Source: Candidatus Sumerlaeota bacterium
GTDB taxonomy: Bacteria > Sumerlaeota > Sumerlaeia > JAFGJS01
NCBI GenBank assembly: GCA_016928995.1
Contig: JAFGJS010000080.1
Span: 1 to 5,678 of the forward strand
Direction of reading: 5' to 3'
Length of the DNA stretch: 5,678 nt
Below are positions 501-5,678 of the stretch, piece by piece. Position 1 is the stretch's first letter. Each line of letters starts with the position of its first letter. Both the position numbers and the translations under genes were made by a program. The notes beneath the pieces were generated by a model. That model was not told the DNA's origin, made no database searches, and saw only the letters and a program-made list of their open reading frames with translations.

Positions 501-2849
501 ATGAAAAAATCGTCAGTCACTTTCGTGATTTTTGCTGCTATACTCATTTGTTTAAACGGCGCAGCGAAGGAGAACAAGGAGCAATCGGAGATGGTGTTAT
601 GGTATGAGAAACCGGCCAGGGAATGGGTGGAAGCCTTGCCTATCGGCAACGGCCGGTTGGGTGCGATGGTTTTCGGCGGGGTTCAACAGGAGCGCCTGCA
701 ACTGAATGAAGACACGCTGTGGGCTGGCGGGCCATATGATCCTAATCATCAGGGCGCCGTCGAGGCGCTGCCTCAGATTCGCCAGTTGGTTTTAAATGGT
801 GAATATCGAGAAGCCGACCGGTTGATTGGCGAGCGGATGATGGCGACTCCGATCCGGCAAATGCCCTATCAAACAGTGGGCAATCTTAATTTTGAATTCA
901 CGGCCATTGGCGAGACGGCGGATTATCACCGTGAACTGAATCTTGACACGGCGACTATCCGGGTGGGTTACAAAATCGATGATGTCGTGTATGTTCGTGA
1001 AGTATTCGTCAGTCCGGTCGATCAGGTCATCGTGATGCGGCTCAGCGCGGATCAACCCGGCAAGATCAGTTTCACCGCGAAATACTCAACACCGCAAACA
1101 GCGGCCGTTTCCGTTCAAAATGGAGACACCTTGCTTCTCGACGGCGTCAATGGATCCTCGGAAGGGATTGAAGGCGTCTTGAAATTCCAGGCGCTCGCAC
1201 GAATTGTACTTCAAGGCGGAGAAATCAGCGCGGAAGAAGATTCATTGACCGTCAGCGGCGCCGATTCCGCGATGCTGCTGATCGCTGCCGCAACGAGTTA
1301 TGTTCGCTACGATGATGTCAGCGGCGATCCTAAGGCAAAAAACCAGGCGACGATCAACAAGGCTTTGGCCAAGGATTATGGCGCCTTGCTTGAGGATCAT
1401 GTACGTGAGCATCAGCGCTTGTTCCATCGCGTGGAAATCGATCTGGGCCGTACGAAAGCGATAAACCTGCCGACGGATGAACGCATTCGCCGTTCCGAAG
1501 AACTCGATGATCCCGCGCTGACCGCGCTTTATTTTCAATATGGGCGCTATCTGTTGATCTGTAGTTCGCGTCCGGGAACGCAACCGGCCAACCTGCAGGG
1601 CATCTGGAATGAAAGCATAAAGCCGCCTTGGGGCAGCAAGTACACGATCAACATCAACACTGAGATGAATTACTGGCCGGCGGAACCGGCCAATTTGGCC
1701 GAATGCGCCGAACCGTTGATCAACATGGTGAAGGAAATCGGGATCACCGGCAGGCGCACGGCGAAGATTCACTACGGCGTCGATCAAGGGTGGACGGCGC
1801 ACCATAATACGGATATCTGGCGCGCCACGGCGCCGATCGATGGGCCGGCGTGGGGCATGTGGCCGACCGGCGGCGCATGGCTCTGCATGCATTTGTGGGA
1901 GCATTATGAATACAACGGCGATTTGGAATACCTCGCGGACGTCTACCCAACCTTAAAAGGATCGGCGGAGTTCTTTCTGGCAACGCTGGTTGAAGAGCCT
2001 AAGCATGGCTGGCTGGTCACTTGCCCGTCGATTTCGCCCGAGAATAGACATCCTCATGGAGTGTCGGTTTGCGCAGGGCCGACGATGGACAACCAGATTT
2101 TACGCGACCTGTTTACATACACGATTGAAGCTTCGAAATTGCTGAATGCCGACGAGGATCTGCGCCGGCAGCTGAGCGACGCTTGTGAAAAATTGCCGCC
2201 GAATCAAATCGGCAAGGAAGGGCAGTTGCAGGAGTGGCTGGAAGACTGGGATATGGCGGCGCCGGAGATTCATCACCGGCATGTGTCGCATCTTTACGGA
2301 CTTTTTCCATCGGATCAGATTCATGTGCGCGACACTCCCGAATTGGCCGCTGCCGTGCGAAAGAGCCTTGAGATTCGTGGAGACGATGCGACTGGATGGG
2401 GAATCGGCTGGCGTTTGAATCTATGGGCGTGGTTGCATGATGGTGAACATGCGCACAAGATTCTGAAAATGCTGCTTCGGCCTAGTCGCACCTATCCCAA
2501 TATGTTCGACGCGCATCCGCCGTTCCAGATCGATGGAAACTTCGGCGGCGTCAGCGGGATTGCGGCGATGTTCATGCAATCCCGATGCAAAATTGAAAAC
2601 GGCGGCATGGTTGCAGAAATCGACTTGCTGCCAGCATTGCCGTCAGCGTTTCCCAATGGAAGCATACGTGGATTCAAGGCCAAAGGAGGTTATGATTTGG
2701 ACATCGATTGGAAAGATGGCAAACTTATCACGGCTAAACTGCATTCTAATCTTGGGAATCCATGCCAGGTTTATTATGGCGACATGACAACTAAAATCGC
2801 TTTGGGCGCAGGGGAAACGCTCGTGCTTAATGGCGGTCTGGAGAAGTAA
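501..2849 (+). CDS. Secreted alpha-L-fucosidase, glycoside hydrolase family 95
   Basis: GH95 enzymes hydrolyse terminal L-fucose, classically alpha-1,2-linked, from glycans with inversion; some members act on L-galactose. Residue numbers here count from the ATG at 483; subtract 6 for the preferred start at 501. A signal peptide (MKKSS, hydrophobic run to about residue 25, possible cleavage after NGAA at about 28) predicts export. LIC is not a good lipobox because Ile precedes Cys. The N-terminal beta-sandwich (about 38-285) opens with LPIGNGRLGAMVFGG and LNEDTLWAGGP. The (alpha/alpha)6 catalytic domain (about 300-690) carries NININTEMNYWPAEPANL (389-405), GWTAHHNTDIW (436-446), CPSISPEN (514-521) and FDAHPPFQIDGNFGG (675-689). 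A C-terminal beta domain follows. By position relative to Bifidobacterium AfcA (N421, N423, E566, D766), the catalytic residues are N390, N392, E520 and D684; all are present. Length is normal for the family and the gene appears intact. Its TAA overlaps the fucU ATG. Specificity among fucosyl linkages cannot be told from sequence. Confidence 0.94.
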   Translation: MKKSSVTFVIFAAILICLNGAAKENKEQSEMVLWYEKPAREWVEALPIGNGRLGAMVFGGVQQERLQLNEDTLWAGGPYDPNHQGAVEALPQIRQLVLNGEYREADRLIGERMMATPIRQMPYQTVGNLNFEFTAIGETADYHRELNLDTATIRVGYKIDDVVYVREVFVSPVDQVIVMRLSADQPGKISFTAKYSTPQTAAVSVQNGDTLLLDGVNGSSEGIEGVLKFQALARIVLQGGEISAEEDSLTVSGADSAMLLIAAATSYVRYDDVSGDPKAKNQATINKALAKDYGALLEDHVREHQRLFHRVEIDLGRTKAINLPTDERIRRSEELDDPALTALYFQYGRYLLICSSRPGTQPANLQGIWNESIKPPWGSKYTININTEMNYWPAEPANLAECAEPLINMVKEIGITGRRTAKIHYGVDQGWTAHHNTDIWRATAPIDGPAWGMWPTGGAWLCMHLWEHYEYNGDLEYLADVYPTLKGSAEFFLATLVEEPKHGWLVTCPSISPENRHPHGVSVCAGPTMDNQILRDLFTYTIEASKLLNADEDLRRQLSDACEKLPPNQIGKEGQLQEWLEDWDMAAPEIHHRHVSHLYGLFPSDQIHVRDTPELAAAVRKSLEIRGDDATGWGIGWRLNLWAWLHDGEHAHKILKMLLRPSRTYPNMFDAHPPFQIDGNFGGVSGIAAMFMQSRCKIENGGMVAEIDLLPALPSAFPNGSIRGFKAKGGYDLDIDWKDGKLITAKLHSNLGNPCQVYYGDMTTKIALGAGETLVLNGGLEK
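576..593 (+). promoter_or_regulatory. Possible internal translation start giving a leaderless fucosidase
   Basis: Within the fucosidase gene, AAGGAG at 576-581 lies 9 bases before an in-frame ATG at 591-593, and a second AAGGAG is at 567-572. This ATG is residue 37 (MVLWYEKPAREW), exactly at the border between the signal peptide linker and the GH95 domain. Initiation there would give a full-length catalytic protein without export signal. The AAGGAG copies also encode the Lys-Glu-rich linker (AKENKEQ), so they may be incidental. Confidence 0.25.
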
Positions 2850-3280
2850 TGCTCAATGGAATTTCACCCCTGATCGGGCCTGATTTGCTTGCAGCGCTAT
2901 ATCGCATGGGACACGGAGATGAAATTGTTCTGGCTGACGCGCATTTTCCAGGCGAATCATTCAACAACAGAGTGTTGCGCGCGGATGGATTGAAAATCCC
3001 CGACCTGCTCGATGCAATCCTGCCTCTATTCCCGCTGGATACATACGTTGAAACTCCCCTGATCATGATGAGCGCTGTCGCCGGCGATCAGCTGGATCAA
3101 AACGTGCTGAAGTCGTACCGCGATGTCATCCGAAAACATGCTCCGCATGCGCCTGCTATTGAACACATTGATCGTTTTGAGTTCTATGAACGCGCTCGAG
3201 CCGCTTACACCGTGCTGATGACAGGCGAAACGGCGAAATATGGCAATATCATCCTGAAAAAAGGCGTAGTCAGTGTTTAG
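2849..3280 (+). CDS. fucU: L-fucose mutarotase, FucU/RbsD family
   Basis: FucU interconverts the alpha and beta anomers of L-fucose in the cytoplasm, so released sugar reaches the anomer used by the isomerase. The 143-residue product is the usual length (E. coli FucU is about 140) and matches that protein throughout: ISPLI then LL (5-14), MGHGDEIVLADAHFP (20-34), RADGLKIPDLLDAILPLFPLD (44-64), RFEFYERARAAY (109-120) and GETAKYGNIILKKG (126-139). The catalytic His22 and sugar-binding Asp30 are in the same positions as in E. coli; Arg109 and Tyr131-Asn133 correspond to Arg107 and 129-131 there. The RADG motif and long C-terminal part favour FucU over ribose-pyranase RbsD. The ATG overlaps the fucosidase stop (TAATG), with GGAG at 2840-2843 five bases upstream, so translation is probably coupled. 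The isomerase follows after 18 bases. Confidence 0.95.
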   Translation: MLNGISPLIGPDLLAALYRMGHGDEIVLADAHFPGESFNNRVLRADGLKIPDLLDAILPLFPLDTYVETPLIMMSAVAGDQLDQNVLKSYRDVIRKHAPHAPAIEHIDRFEFYERARAAYTVLMTGETAKYGNIILKKGVVSV

Positions 3281-3298: not shown

Positions 3299-5089
3299 AT
3301 GACGAGTTCAAAGTATCGTTTTTCCGGCGAACCGCCGAGAATCGGAATTCGTCCCACGATCGACGGACGTCTTGGAGGAGTGCGCGAATCGCTGGAAAAG
3401 CAAACCATGGCGATGGCTAAAACAACTGAGAAACTCATTCATCAATTGCGTCATCCTTCCGGCGAAAAAGTCGAATGTGTCATCCCTCCGTTCACCATCG
3501 GCGGTGTTCAGGAATCGGCAAGCTGCGCCGAATTTTTTGCACGTAATCGTGTCGGCGTTTCGCTCACGGTGACGCCCTGCTGGTGCTACGGTTCGGAAAC
3601 GATGGACATGGATTCTCTGACGCCGAAAGCCATCTGGGGATTCAATGGGACGGAACGCCCCGGCGCTGTGTATCTGGCTGCTGCACTGGCAGCGCATAAT
3701 CAAAAGGGTCTGCCAGCATTCGGCATCTATGGACGCGATGTGCAGGACGCCAATGAAAAATCCATACCTGCCGATGTCGCTGAAAAGATACTGCGCTTTG
3801 TGCGCGCCGGACTCGCGACAGCGACCCTGCGTGGCAAATCATACGCTTCAATGGGCGGATGTTCCATGGGCATCGCCGGCTCGATTGTGGATCAGGGATT
3901 TTTCGAAGATTATCTCGGAATGCGCGTGGAAGCGATCGACATGAGCGAATTCACACGTCGCATTGAACGTGAGATCTATGATCCGATAGAATTCAAAAGG
4001 GCGCTCGCCTGGACGCGTAAAAATTGCGTGGAAGGCGAGGACCTGAATCCACCGGAGAAACAGTTTTCGCGAGAGGCGAAAGACAACGCCTGGGAGACAT
4101 GCGTCAAAATGGCGATGATCGCCCGCGATATCATGGTCGGCAATTCGCGACTGGCGGAACTTGGTTTCGGTGAAGAGGCGATGGGACGCAACGCCATCGC
4201 CGGCGGATTCCAGGGGCAACGCCAGTGGACCGACCATATGCCCAACGGCGACTTCATGGAGGCGATACTGAATTCCTCGTTCGACTGGAACGGCATACGA
4301 CAACCGTATATCCTGGCGACGGAAAACGATTCATTGAACGCTGCCGCCATGCTCTTTGGTCATCTGTTAAACGGCACAGCGCAAATTTTCGCCGATGTCC
4401 GCACCTACTGGAGCCCTGAAGCCGTCAAGCGCGTGACCGGTCATACACTCAAAGGCGCAGCAGCAAACGGCATCATCCACATGATTAATTCCGGACCAGC
4501 GGCGCTGGATGGTTCCGGCCGGATGCAGATCGACGGCAAACCTGCAATGAAACCTTACTGGCAAATCAAACACACTGACGTTGAGGCATGCCTGCAGGCG
4601 ACCACCTGGCGCCATAGTGTCATTGAATATTTTCGCGGCGGGGGATACAGCACACGCTTCAGCACTGTGGGCGGCATGCCGCTCACCATGTCGCGCATCA
4701 ACCTGGTCAAAGGCCTGGGGCCGGCGCTGCAGATCGCAGAAGGGCAAAGCATCGATTTGCCGGAAAAAGTTCATGACGCGCTCGATGAGCGCACCAATTA
4801 CACCTGGCCGACGACATGGTTTGCACCACGTGTCACTGGCAGCGGATGCTTTACGGACGTCTACTCGGTGATGAACAACTGGGGCGCCAACCACTGCTCA
4901 TTGGCTTACGGGCACATCGGCGCCGATCTTATTGCATTGGCCTCCATGCTGCGGATACCGGTTTACATGCATAACGTTCCGTTGGATCAGGTTTTCCGCC
5001 CCAGCGCCTGGACATTGTTCGGATCAGATCAGGATCCGGCTGGCGCCGATTTTCGCGCCTGTAAAAACTTCGGACCTCTATATAAATAA
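3299..5089 (+). CDS. fucI: L-fucose isomerase
   Basis: FucI converts L-fucose to L-fuculose, the first committed step of fucose catabolism, in the cytoplasm with Mn2+; many members also accept D-arabinose. The 596-residue product aligns with E. coli FucI (591 residues) along its whole length. Examples are [10 protein letters not shown] (15-24), [15 protein letters not shown] (91-105), [21 protein letters not shown] (113-133), [10 protein letters not shown] (303-312), [10 protein letters not shown] (323-332), [18 protein letters not shown] (365-382), [10 protein letters not shown] (445-454) and the C-terminus [10 protein letters not shown]. The metal ligands Glu337, Asp361 and His528 of E. coli correspond to Glu342 (ATENDS), Asp366 and His532 (GANH), all present. 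The TAAGGAG at 3286-3292 is six bases before the ATG, a strong ribosome binding site. A short N-terminal extension ([13 protein letters not shown]) precedes the conserved start. No frameshift or missing catalytic residue is seen. Close spacing to fucU and GH95 supports one operon. Confidence 0.97.
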
Positions 5090-5159
5090 TCCAAGAACCA
5101 TCGATAACAGTCGACGGCAATCAACTGCGCATGAGCAAAACAATCGAGGAGATCATCCC

Positions 5160-5237
5160 ATGCCCAAAACAATGACCGGCGCCATTCTGCCCGGCAACAG
5201 CACAGTTGAATTAAACCATGCCCATTCGCGCCTCTAG
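5160..5237 (+). pseudogene. Truncated N-terminus of a zinc-type (MDR) alcohol dehydrogenase
   Basis: GAGGAG at 5146-5151 is followed eight bases later by an ATG at 5160, an ideal initiation site. The product begins MPKTMTGAILPGNSTVEL, which resembles the start of medium-chain zinc dehydrogenases of the alcohol/sorbitol/threonine type: a first beta strand running to Val-Glu-Leu, normally followed by a Pro-rich turn and the GxCGSD zinc motif. Here only about 18 residues look homologous. Then come NHAHSRL and TAG at 5235-5237, for 25 residues in total instead of about 340. I find no continuation of the family (no GICGSD, no GHE motif) in any + frame downstream. It begins 70 bases after fucI and would have been the next operon gene, perhaps a reductase of a fucose-derived aldehyde (inference). 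Alternatives are a chance resemblance, a small real peptide, or a contig misjoin. Confidence 0.5.
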
Positions 5238-5244
5238 AGACGCG
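5227..5244. repeat. 18-bp imperfect palindrome at the dehydrogenase breakpoint
   Basis: CGCGCCTCTAGAGACGCG is symmetrical around 5235/5236. The inner CTCTAGAG and the outer CGCG arms pair perfectly, with only the 5231/5240 pair mismatched. It spans the TAG that ends the truncated dehydrogenase frame and lies where homology to that family stops. It could be a stable stem, a recombination site or a protein-binding site; the sequence alone does not decide. Confidence 0.6.
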
Positions 5245-5334
5245 TCTGCAAATACGCGCATATCTTAAGAACGCTCCGGCGAGCGTGTCAACCGTCAAAA
5301 ACGTTTTACTGACTGCGCAGGCAGGCGCGTCTCT
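5236..5334. repeat. ~99-bp segment bounded by 14-bp inverted repeats (MITE-like or REP-like)
   Basis: AGAGACGCGTCTGC at 5236-5249 and GCAGGCGCGTCTCT at 5321-5334 are inverted copies with 13 of 14 positions matching. They enclose 71 bases with further symmetry: a 6-bp stem ACGCTC/GAGCGT with a CGGC tetraloop at 5271-5286, and GTCA/TGAC (5294-5297, 5310-5313) around the palindrome AAAACGTTTT (5298-5307). No transposase is encoded. Terminal inverted repeats, small size and internal structure fit a miniature non-autonomous element or a palindromic intergenic unit. I see no clear target-site duplication at the outer borders, so insertion is not demonstrated. Confidence 0.4.
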
Positions 5335-5369
5335 CTTCAGCTACGAACTGCATCAATTTCGGCTGTCAT

Positions 5370-5390
5370 GATTTTTGCGGTGCAAAAATC
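5370..5390. repeat. Perfect 9-bp hairpin with 3-base loop
   Basis: GATTTTTGC (5370-5378) and GCAAAAATC (5382-5390) are exact inverted copies around GGT. The last four bases of this stem (5387-5390) also belong to the next hairpin (5387-5405), so in RNA the two stems cannot both form fully. It may be part of the terminator region or a mutually exclusive fold. Confidence 0.55.
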
Positions 5391-5411
5391 CCGCCAGCCG
5401 GGATTGTTTTG
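5387..5411. terminator. Likely bidirectional rho-independent terminator
   Basis: AATCCCG (5387-5393) and CGGGATT (5399-5405) form a perfect 7-bp stem with loop CCAGC. On the + strand it is followed by GTTTTG, a short U-rich tail. Read on the - strand, the stem is followed directly by TTTGC, so CGGGATTTTTGC gives a five-T run. It lies between the + strand fuc operon remnant and the convergent - strand gene ending at 5570, the position expected for a shared terminator. The T-tracts are short, so strength is uncertain. Confidence 0.55.
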
Positions 5412-5419
5412 TCCGTCTA

Positions 5420-5467
5420 CCCAGGCCGGCGCTCACGGTCGCTTTGCGGCCTACGCTTTGGCCTGGG
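5420..5467. repeat. 48-bp REP-like inverted repeat
   Basis: CCCAGGCC (5420-5427) and GGCCTGGG (5460-5467) are perfect 8-bp inverted copies enclosing 32 GC-rich bases. Inside, CGCTTTGCGGCCT (5440-5452) is partly repeated as CGCTTTGGCCT (5454-5464), and this second copy runs into the right arm. Such GC-rich intergenic palindromes are often repeated many times in a genome (REP/BIME-like). The copy number cannot be judged from one window. Confidence 0.45.
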
Positions 5468-5569
5468 CTTTGATCTAAAGCACTTTCAGCGCTAATAAGG
5501 AGTCATGATTGAAGAAGATAAGCGCTTCGCGCATCTTGCCGGAATGAAGACATTCACTTGGACGCACTT

Positions 5570-5678
5570 CTATTCTCGCCTGCTGTGCTCGCGCAGAAAG
5601 ATGGCGGCCTCGGCTTTCGTGCGTTCGCCTTGAGCCAGGGCGATCACGAAGTCGTAAAGGGCGCCGGGCGGGGCGTCG
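5570..5678 (-). CDS. 3' end of an unidentified convergent CDS (partial)
   Basis: On the - strand a frame enters from the right edge and ends at TAG (5572-5570), giving 35 visible C-terminal residues beginning DAPPGALYDFVIALAQGE and ending LREHSRRE. Codon third positions are strongly G/C (GAC GCC CCG CCC GGC GCC, then TAC GAC TTC GTG ATC GCC CTG), which supports real coding and appears more G/C-biased than in the fuc genes. The tail looks helical (ALYDFVIALAQGE, KAEAAIFLREH), but I do not recognise the family. It converges on the fuc operon, with the probable bidirectional terminator at 5387-5411 about 160 bases past its stop. Confidence 0.55.
   Translation of the reverse strand, partial: DAPPGALYDFVIALAQGERTKAEAAIFLREHSRRE

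Follow-up and report, generated by a model that had tools for sequence, protein, structure and literature searches.

The most probable reading of positions 5160–5213, to which we give a probability of about 0.77, is that they preserve the 5′ end of a zinc MDR dehydrogenase gene, formerly located behind fucI in a fucose-use operon, whose body was lost by deletion or rearrangement. The 25-codon open-reading frame that contains them (5160–5237) is a true gene remnant, correctly read, ordinary in kind and adjoining mobile-element debris. The window, by which we mean the whole 5678 bp stretch analysed, is the entire contig C123 of a 4.55 Mb genome assembled in 161 contigs and 92.5% complete. It carries a fucose-use operon of GH95 fucosidase, FucU and FucI, all three intact (FucU and FucI both score above curated NCBIfam cut-offs), and its left end is a fragment of a LacI-like regulator, as judged by reading the ORF list. 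The features are as follows:

483–2849, + strand: GH95 alpha-L-fucosidase gene, intact (Pfam Glyco_hydro_95_cat, E 2e-178)
2849–3280, + strand: fucU, L-fucose mutarotase, intact (above the NCBIfam cut-off for L-fucose mutarotase)
3299–5089, + strand: fucI, L-fucose isomerase, intact (above the NCBIfam cut-off for fucI; stop codon 5087–5089)
5146–5151, + strand: GAGGAG, ribosome-binding site of the broken gene (identified by reading, 8 nt ahead of the ATG at 5160)
5160–5213, + strand: probable MDR dehydrogenase remnant, first 18 codons (MTGAILPGNSTVE shared without mismatch by the MDR starts of L147 and L186; family-unique motif)
5214–5237, + strand: seven unrelated codons and a TAG stop (without similarity to the continuing MDR genes, protein or DNA)
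5214–5322, no strand: unique intergenic sequence (without a second copy in the assembly; fold unremarkable)
5227–5244, no strand: imperfect palindrome CGCGCCTCTAGAGACGCG, 8/9 pairs (tallied across the window plus 74 kb of this genome)
5323–~5550, no strand: MITE-like repeat, left terminus kept, right terminus without its outer bases (copy alignment, terminus scoring, target duplications)
5570–5677, − strand: open frame, 3′ end only, cut by the contig end (ORF list; searches within the class gave only weak matches, the best with E 0.02)

The truncated frame behind fucI

The ribosome-binding site behind fucI is as good as the first-pass annotation had described it, and the frame that follows starts MPKTMTGAILPGNSTVEL and reads in full MPKTMTGAILPGNSTVELNHAHSRL, with its TAG at 5235–5237. 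The MDR-dehydrogenase N-terminus recognised in that annotation was confirmed: MTGAILPGNSTVE matches the starts of full-length (~350 aa) zinc MDR dehydrogenases at 13/13 residues in two other genomes (G038 and G061, the sources of L147 and L186), both proteins opening with MAKMTGAILPGNSTVEF. When 2.58 million translated residues were scanned for the motif [GA][AV]xLPG[ND]STV, the only hits were the window stub and the N-termini of this MDR subfamily, and the dehydrogenase homology of the stub is therefore secure. Searched against its own genome, the stub peptide matched at one further location only, where a 353-aa gene on contig C41 begins; the homologous N-terminus of that gene reads GA(I/V)LPG(N/D)STVEL. 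A DNA match to 5172–5209 at C19:19377 lies inside an unrelated long open-reading frame and was rejected as an MDR copy, being a chance match.

Homology had been placed as stopping around 5213, and it ends there at codon 18, at the same base in protein and DNA. In the protein, the intact genes all keep a conserved stretch that leads to (S/T)ICGSDIR, whereas the window continues as NHAHSRL and stops; in the DNA, the window reads GAATTA and then, from the break, AACCATGCC, where intact genes have GAGTTTCGTGAATAC or GAACTGCGGACG. A Pfam search of the 25-aa product gave no match, and the catalytic and cofactor domains (ADH_N and ADH_zinc_N) are missing from the stub. Beyond the break, a structured RNA in 5214–5323 was considered and rejected (fold z-score −0.45), an Rfam search of the window returned no match, and no plasmid relatives of 5214–5678 were found. 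Just upstream, the window at 5130–5173 holds a near-duplicate start region, in which CATGAGCAAAACAAT at 5130 is followed 29 nt later by CATGCCCAAAACAAT at 5159, which gives a short overlapping upstream frame, MSKTIEEIIPCPKQ.

Intact members of the subfamily and their fucose setting

Pfam assigns the C41 gene to the zinc MDR dehydrogenases; it is intact and belongs to the same subfamily as the stub, whose genome it shares. NCBIfam gave no function for the subfamily, all matches falling far under cut-off. Near the C41 gene are an aldo-keto reductase (Pfam PF00248) and long open-reading frames which, by reading, resemble fucosidases; a small gene between the dehydrogenase and the reductase was considered as FucU/RbsD and set aside, with neither a Pfam nor an NCBIfam match. 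Searching other genomes with the C41 protein recovered intact relatives at 58–73% identity. In Paludibacter (UBA6032) the gene order is FucU, MDR, aldo-keto reductase (AKR), GH29, FucP, regulator, FucI and kinase, one instance of family members lying in fucose clusters. The earlier claim that a fucose-cluster MDR gene was broken here after about 18 codons was right, and neither finding named as refuting it turned up: relatives showed no conserved 25-aa peptide, and the N-terminus is clearly that of a dehydrogenase. Both the Paludibacter cluster and the intact C41 gene resemble the stub in having the same, or nearly the same, first 14 residues and a setting of fucose genes. The stub differs from the Paludibacter gene in retaining 18 of about 350 codons and in lying behind fucI, whereas the Paludibacter gene lies behind fucU. 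In none of the relatives examined was an intact MDR gene found directly 3′ of fucI.

A Chloroflexi MAG retains, downstream of fucI, no more than the C-terminal 80 residues of an MDR from this subfamily (L071, 4898–5137; 70% identity). This second, independent broken copy speaks for the remnant reading and, because only those last residues are kept beside its fucI, loss of the MDR gene next to fucI may have occurred more than once. The MDR gene of a Paludibacteraceae genome (L182, 1468–2545) has one in-frame TAG near codon 195–200 in an otherwise conserved frame, which could be a point nonsense mutation, an error or recoding. Further afield, the fucose/rhamnose microcompartment locus of Clostridium phytofermentans encodes an MDR zinc alcohol dehydrogenase (PMC3557285), again an MDR enzyme in a fucose-use locus and likened here by family and setting; that locus has a microcompartment, whereas no microcompartment genes were seen in the window.

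The palindrome and the downstream repeat

The gene had been described as broken exactly at an 18-bp palindrome, which was proposed as the site of a rearrangement. The palindrome is present at 5227–5244, but it is imperfect, with a single mismatched pair (C5231/A5240), and it is not rare: two of equal quality occur in the window (the other at 4668–4685), and the density over 74 kb of the same genome is 0.22 per kb. "Exactly" was also too strong, since it begins 13 nt beyond the end of MDR homology. Given its chance frequency and this distance, a role for the palindrome as breakpoint or cause is unsupported and we rejected it. The idea, formed by eye, that it represents two collapsed MITE termini was likewise dropped, the terminus score at 5247 (− strand) lying below the 95th percentile of shuffles.

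The repeat that begins at 5323 recurs at about 30 other places in the genome, most at 78–88% identity. Aligned copies end in inverted termini of ~20 bp each, GGGCGCA(A/T)CTCTCTTCAGCT, and are usually 225–228 bp long, longer at some copies (range 225–405 bp). Target duplications of 8 bp flank 3/7 complete copies, those on C22, C6 and C108 (identity 8/8, 8/8 and 7/8), and none was found at the other four. Terminal inverted repeats, short length and target duplications are features of prokaryotic MITEs (reviewed in PMC10969869), which the repeat resembles in its usual length, its terminal inverted repeats and the duplications at some copies; it differs from them in not being AT-rich (about 52% GC) and, for the window copy, in having no right end. 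Terminal inverted repeats and a length below 500 bp are thus found together in the other copies, while the window copy keeps its left terminus only, scoring 25.7 against a shuffle 95th percentile of 5.2. On the right its outer terminal bases are lost and an opposite-strand open frame follows, and the lost terminus suggests a rearranged locus.

Several contigs end ~66 bp past the terminus, a pattern as from a collapsed multicopy element, but no transposase was observed attached to it. Another repeated terminus, GGGCGCATCTTGATCAAGCT, likewise starts ~66 bp from many contig ends (C24, C61, C82, C85, C86, C105, C153, C160, C161 and others), the pattern that a collapsed multicopy insertion sequence akin to the MITE-like family would leave.

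Origin of the break and consequence for fucose use

On the reading we favour, a zinc MDR dehydrogenase gene would originally have lain 3′ of fucI, in an ancestral fucI-MDR order, and deletion or rearrangement in the genome would have removed its body and left 18 codons. Translation from the surviving ATG would pass through 21 nt of unrelated sequence before terminating, hence yielding no enzyme. The MITE-like element with one broken end, 110 nt downstream, makes a mobile-element-associated rearrangement plausible, in which the repeat may have had a part. Those same 110 nt separate the repeat from the break, and 5214–5322 is left without an explanation, which counts against this best account. 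The first-pass annotation had raised the prospect of a displaced dehydrogenase body elsewhere in the genome. None was found in the assembly, which holds only the intact C41 gene and distant paralogues; MDR bodies on C121, C44 and C73 were rejected as candidates at 24–26% identity. Since the assembly reaches 92.5% completeness, the missing body may have escaped assembly.

An assembly misjoin at about 5213, with the gene intact in the organism, is unlikely but has a real chance of being correct: the assembly is of metagenome type and in 161 contigs, many of these stop within the window repeat family or a related one, and the MDR homology ends abruptly. However, the repeat family to the right of the break is abundant here, whereas a search of 1.03 Mb of loci from other genomes did not find it; this distribution speaks for a right-hand segment native to this genome and against a chimera with another organism, and makes a foreign join unlikely. 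Moreover, the join would fall outside any repeated stretch, 5214–5322 having no other copy, and no orphan MDR body lies on any contig. A true remnant is therefore more likely than a misassembly. There is a slim chance that a composite insertion, and not a deletion, split the gene at codon 18 and carried its body past the contig end, as the MITE-like element and the stop of the contig at 5678 would allow; yet no contig of the assembly has a body of the stub subfamily without its start, an opposite-strand open frame stands behind the repeat, and the break does not coincide with an element terminus. That the frame is a genuine small peptide or leader with only a resemblance to dehydrogenases is scarcely credible despite its good ribosome-binding site and complete short frame, since the motif starts a full-length MDR gene in every other genome where it was found, occurs as a short open-reading frame in none of the 80 fucI neighbourhoods compared, and belongs to no conserved 25-aa peptide in relatives.

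The break had been taken to mean loss of an operon gene and a possible change in how fucose products are handled. The gene is indeed broken, but the intact C41 member of the same subfamily weakens the second part: with that gene present, loss of function is not implied, and the activity is probably supplied by it. The genome has a further fucI, on C3 (L034, 8032–9619; 81% identical in protein and 76% in DNA), from which the first 79 codons are missing and whose frame is broken close to the 3′ end (near codon 497), making it a pseudogene; it adjoins large open-reading frames resembling fucosidases. Because this copy is truncated and frame-broken, redundant fucose genes are decaying at more than one place in the genome. 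A broader scenario is speculative and rather improbable: a lineage-specific MITE family would be breaking up duplicated fucose-use genes, the MDR stub and the 5′-truncated C3 fucI would both have come from a single, still continuing loss of a redundant pathway, and the paired MDR and AKR would represent a step of fucose catabolism not yet characterised.

Mobile repeats are commonly flanked by gene remnants, and the stub itself is of little weight. It demonstrates that a 25-codon open-reading frame preceded by a good ribosome-binding site need not encode a small protein but can instead be one end of a pseudogene. It also points to an uncharacterised dehydrogenase subfamily whose Bacteroidales members lie with FucU, an aldo-keto reductase, fucosidases and FucI, and which in this lineage is accompanied by an aldo-keto reductase.
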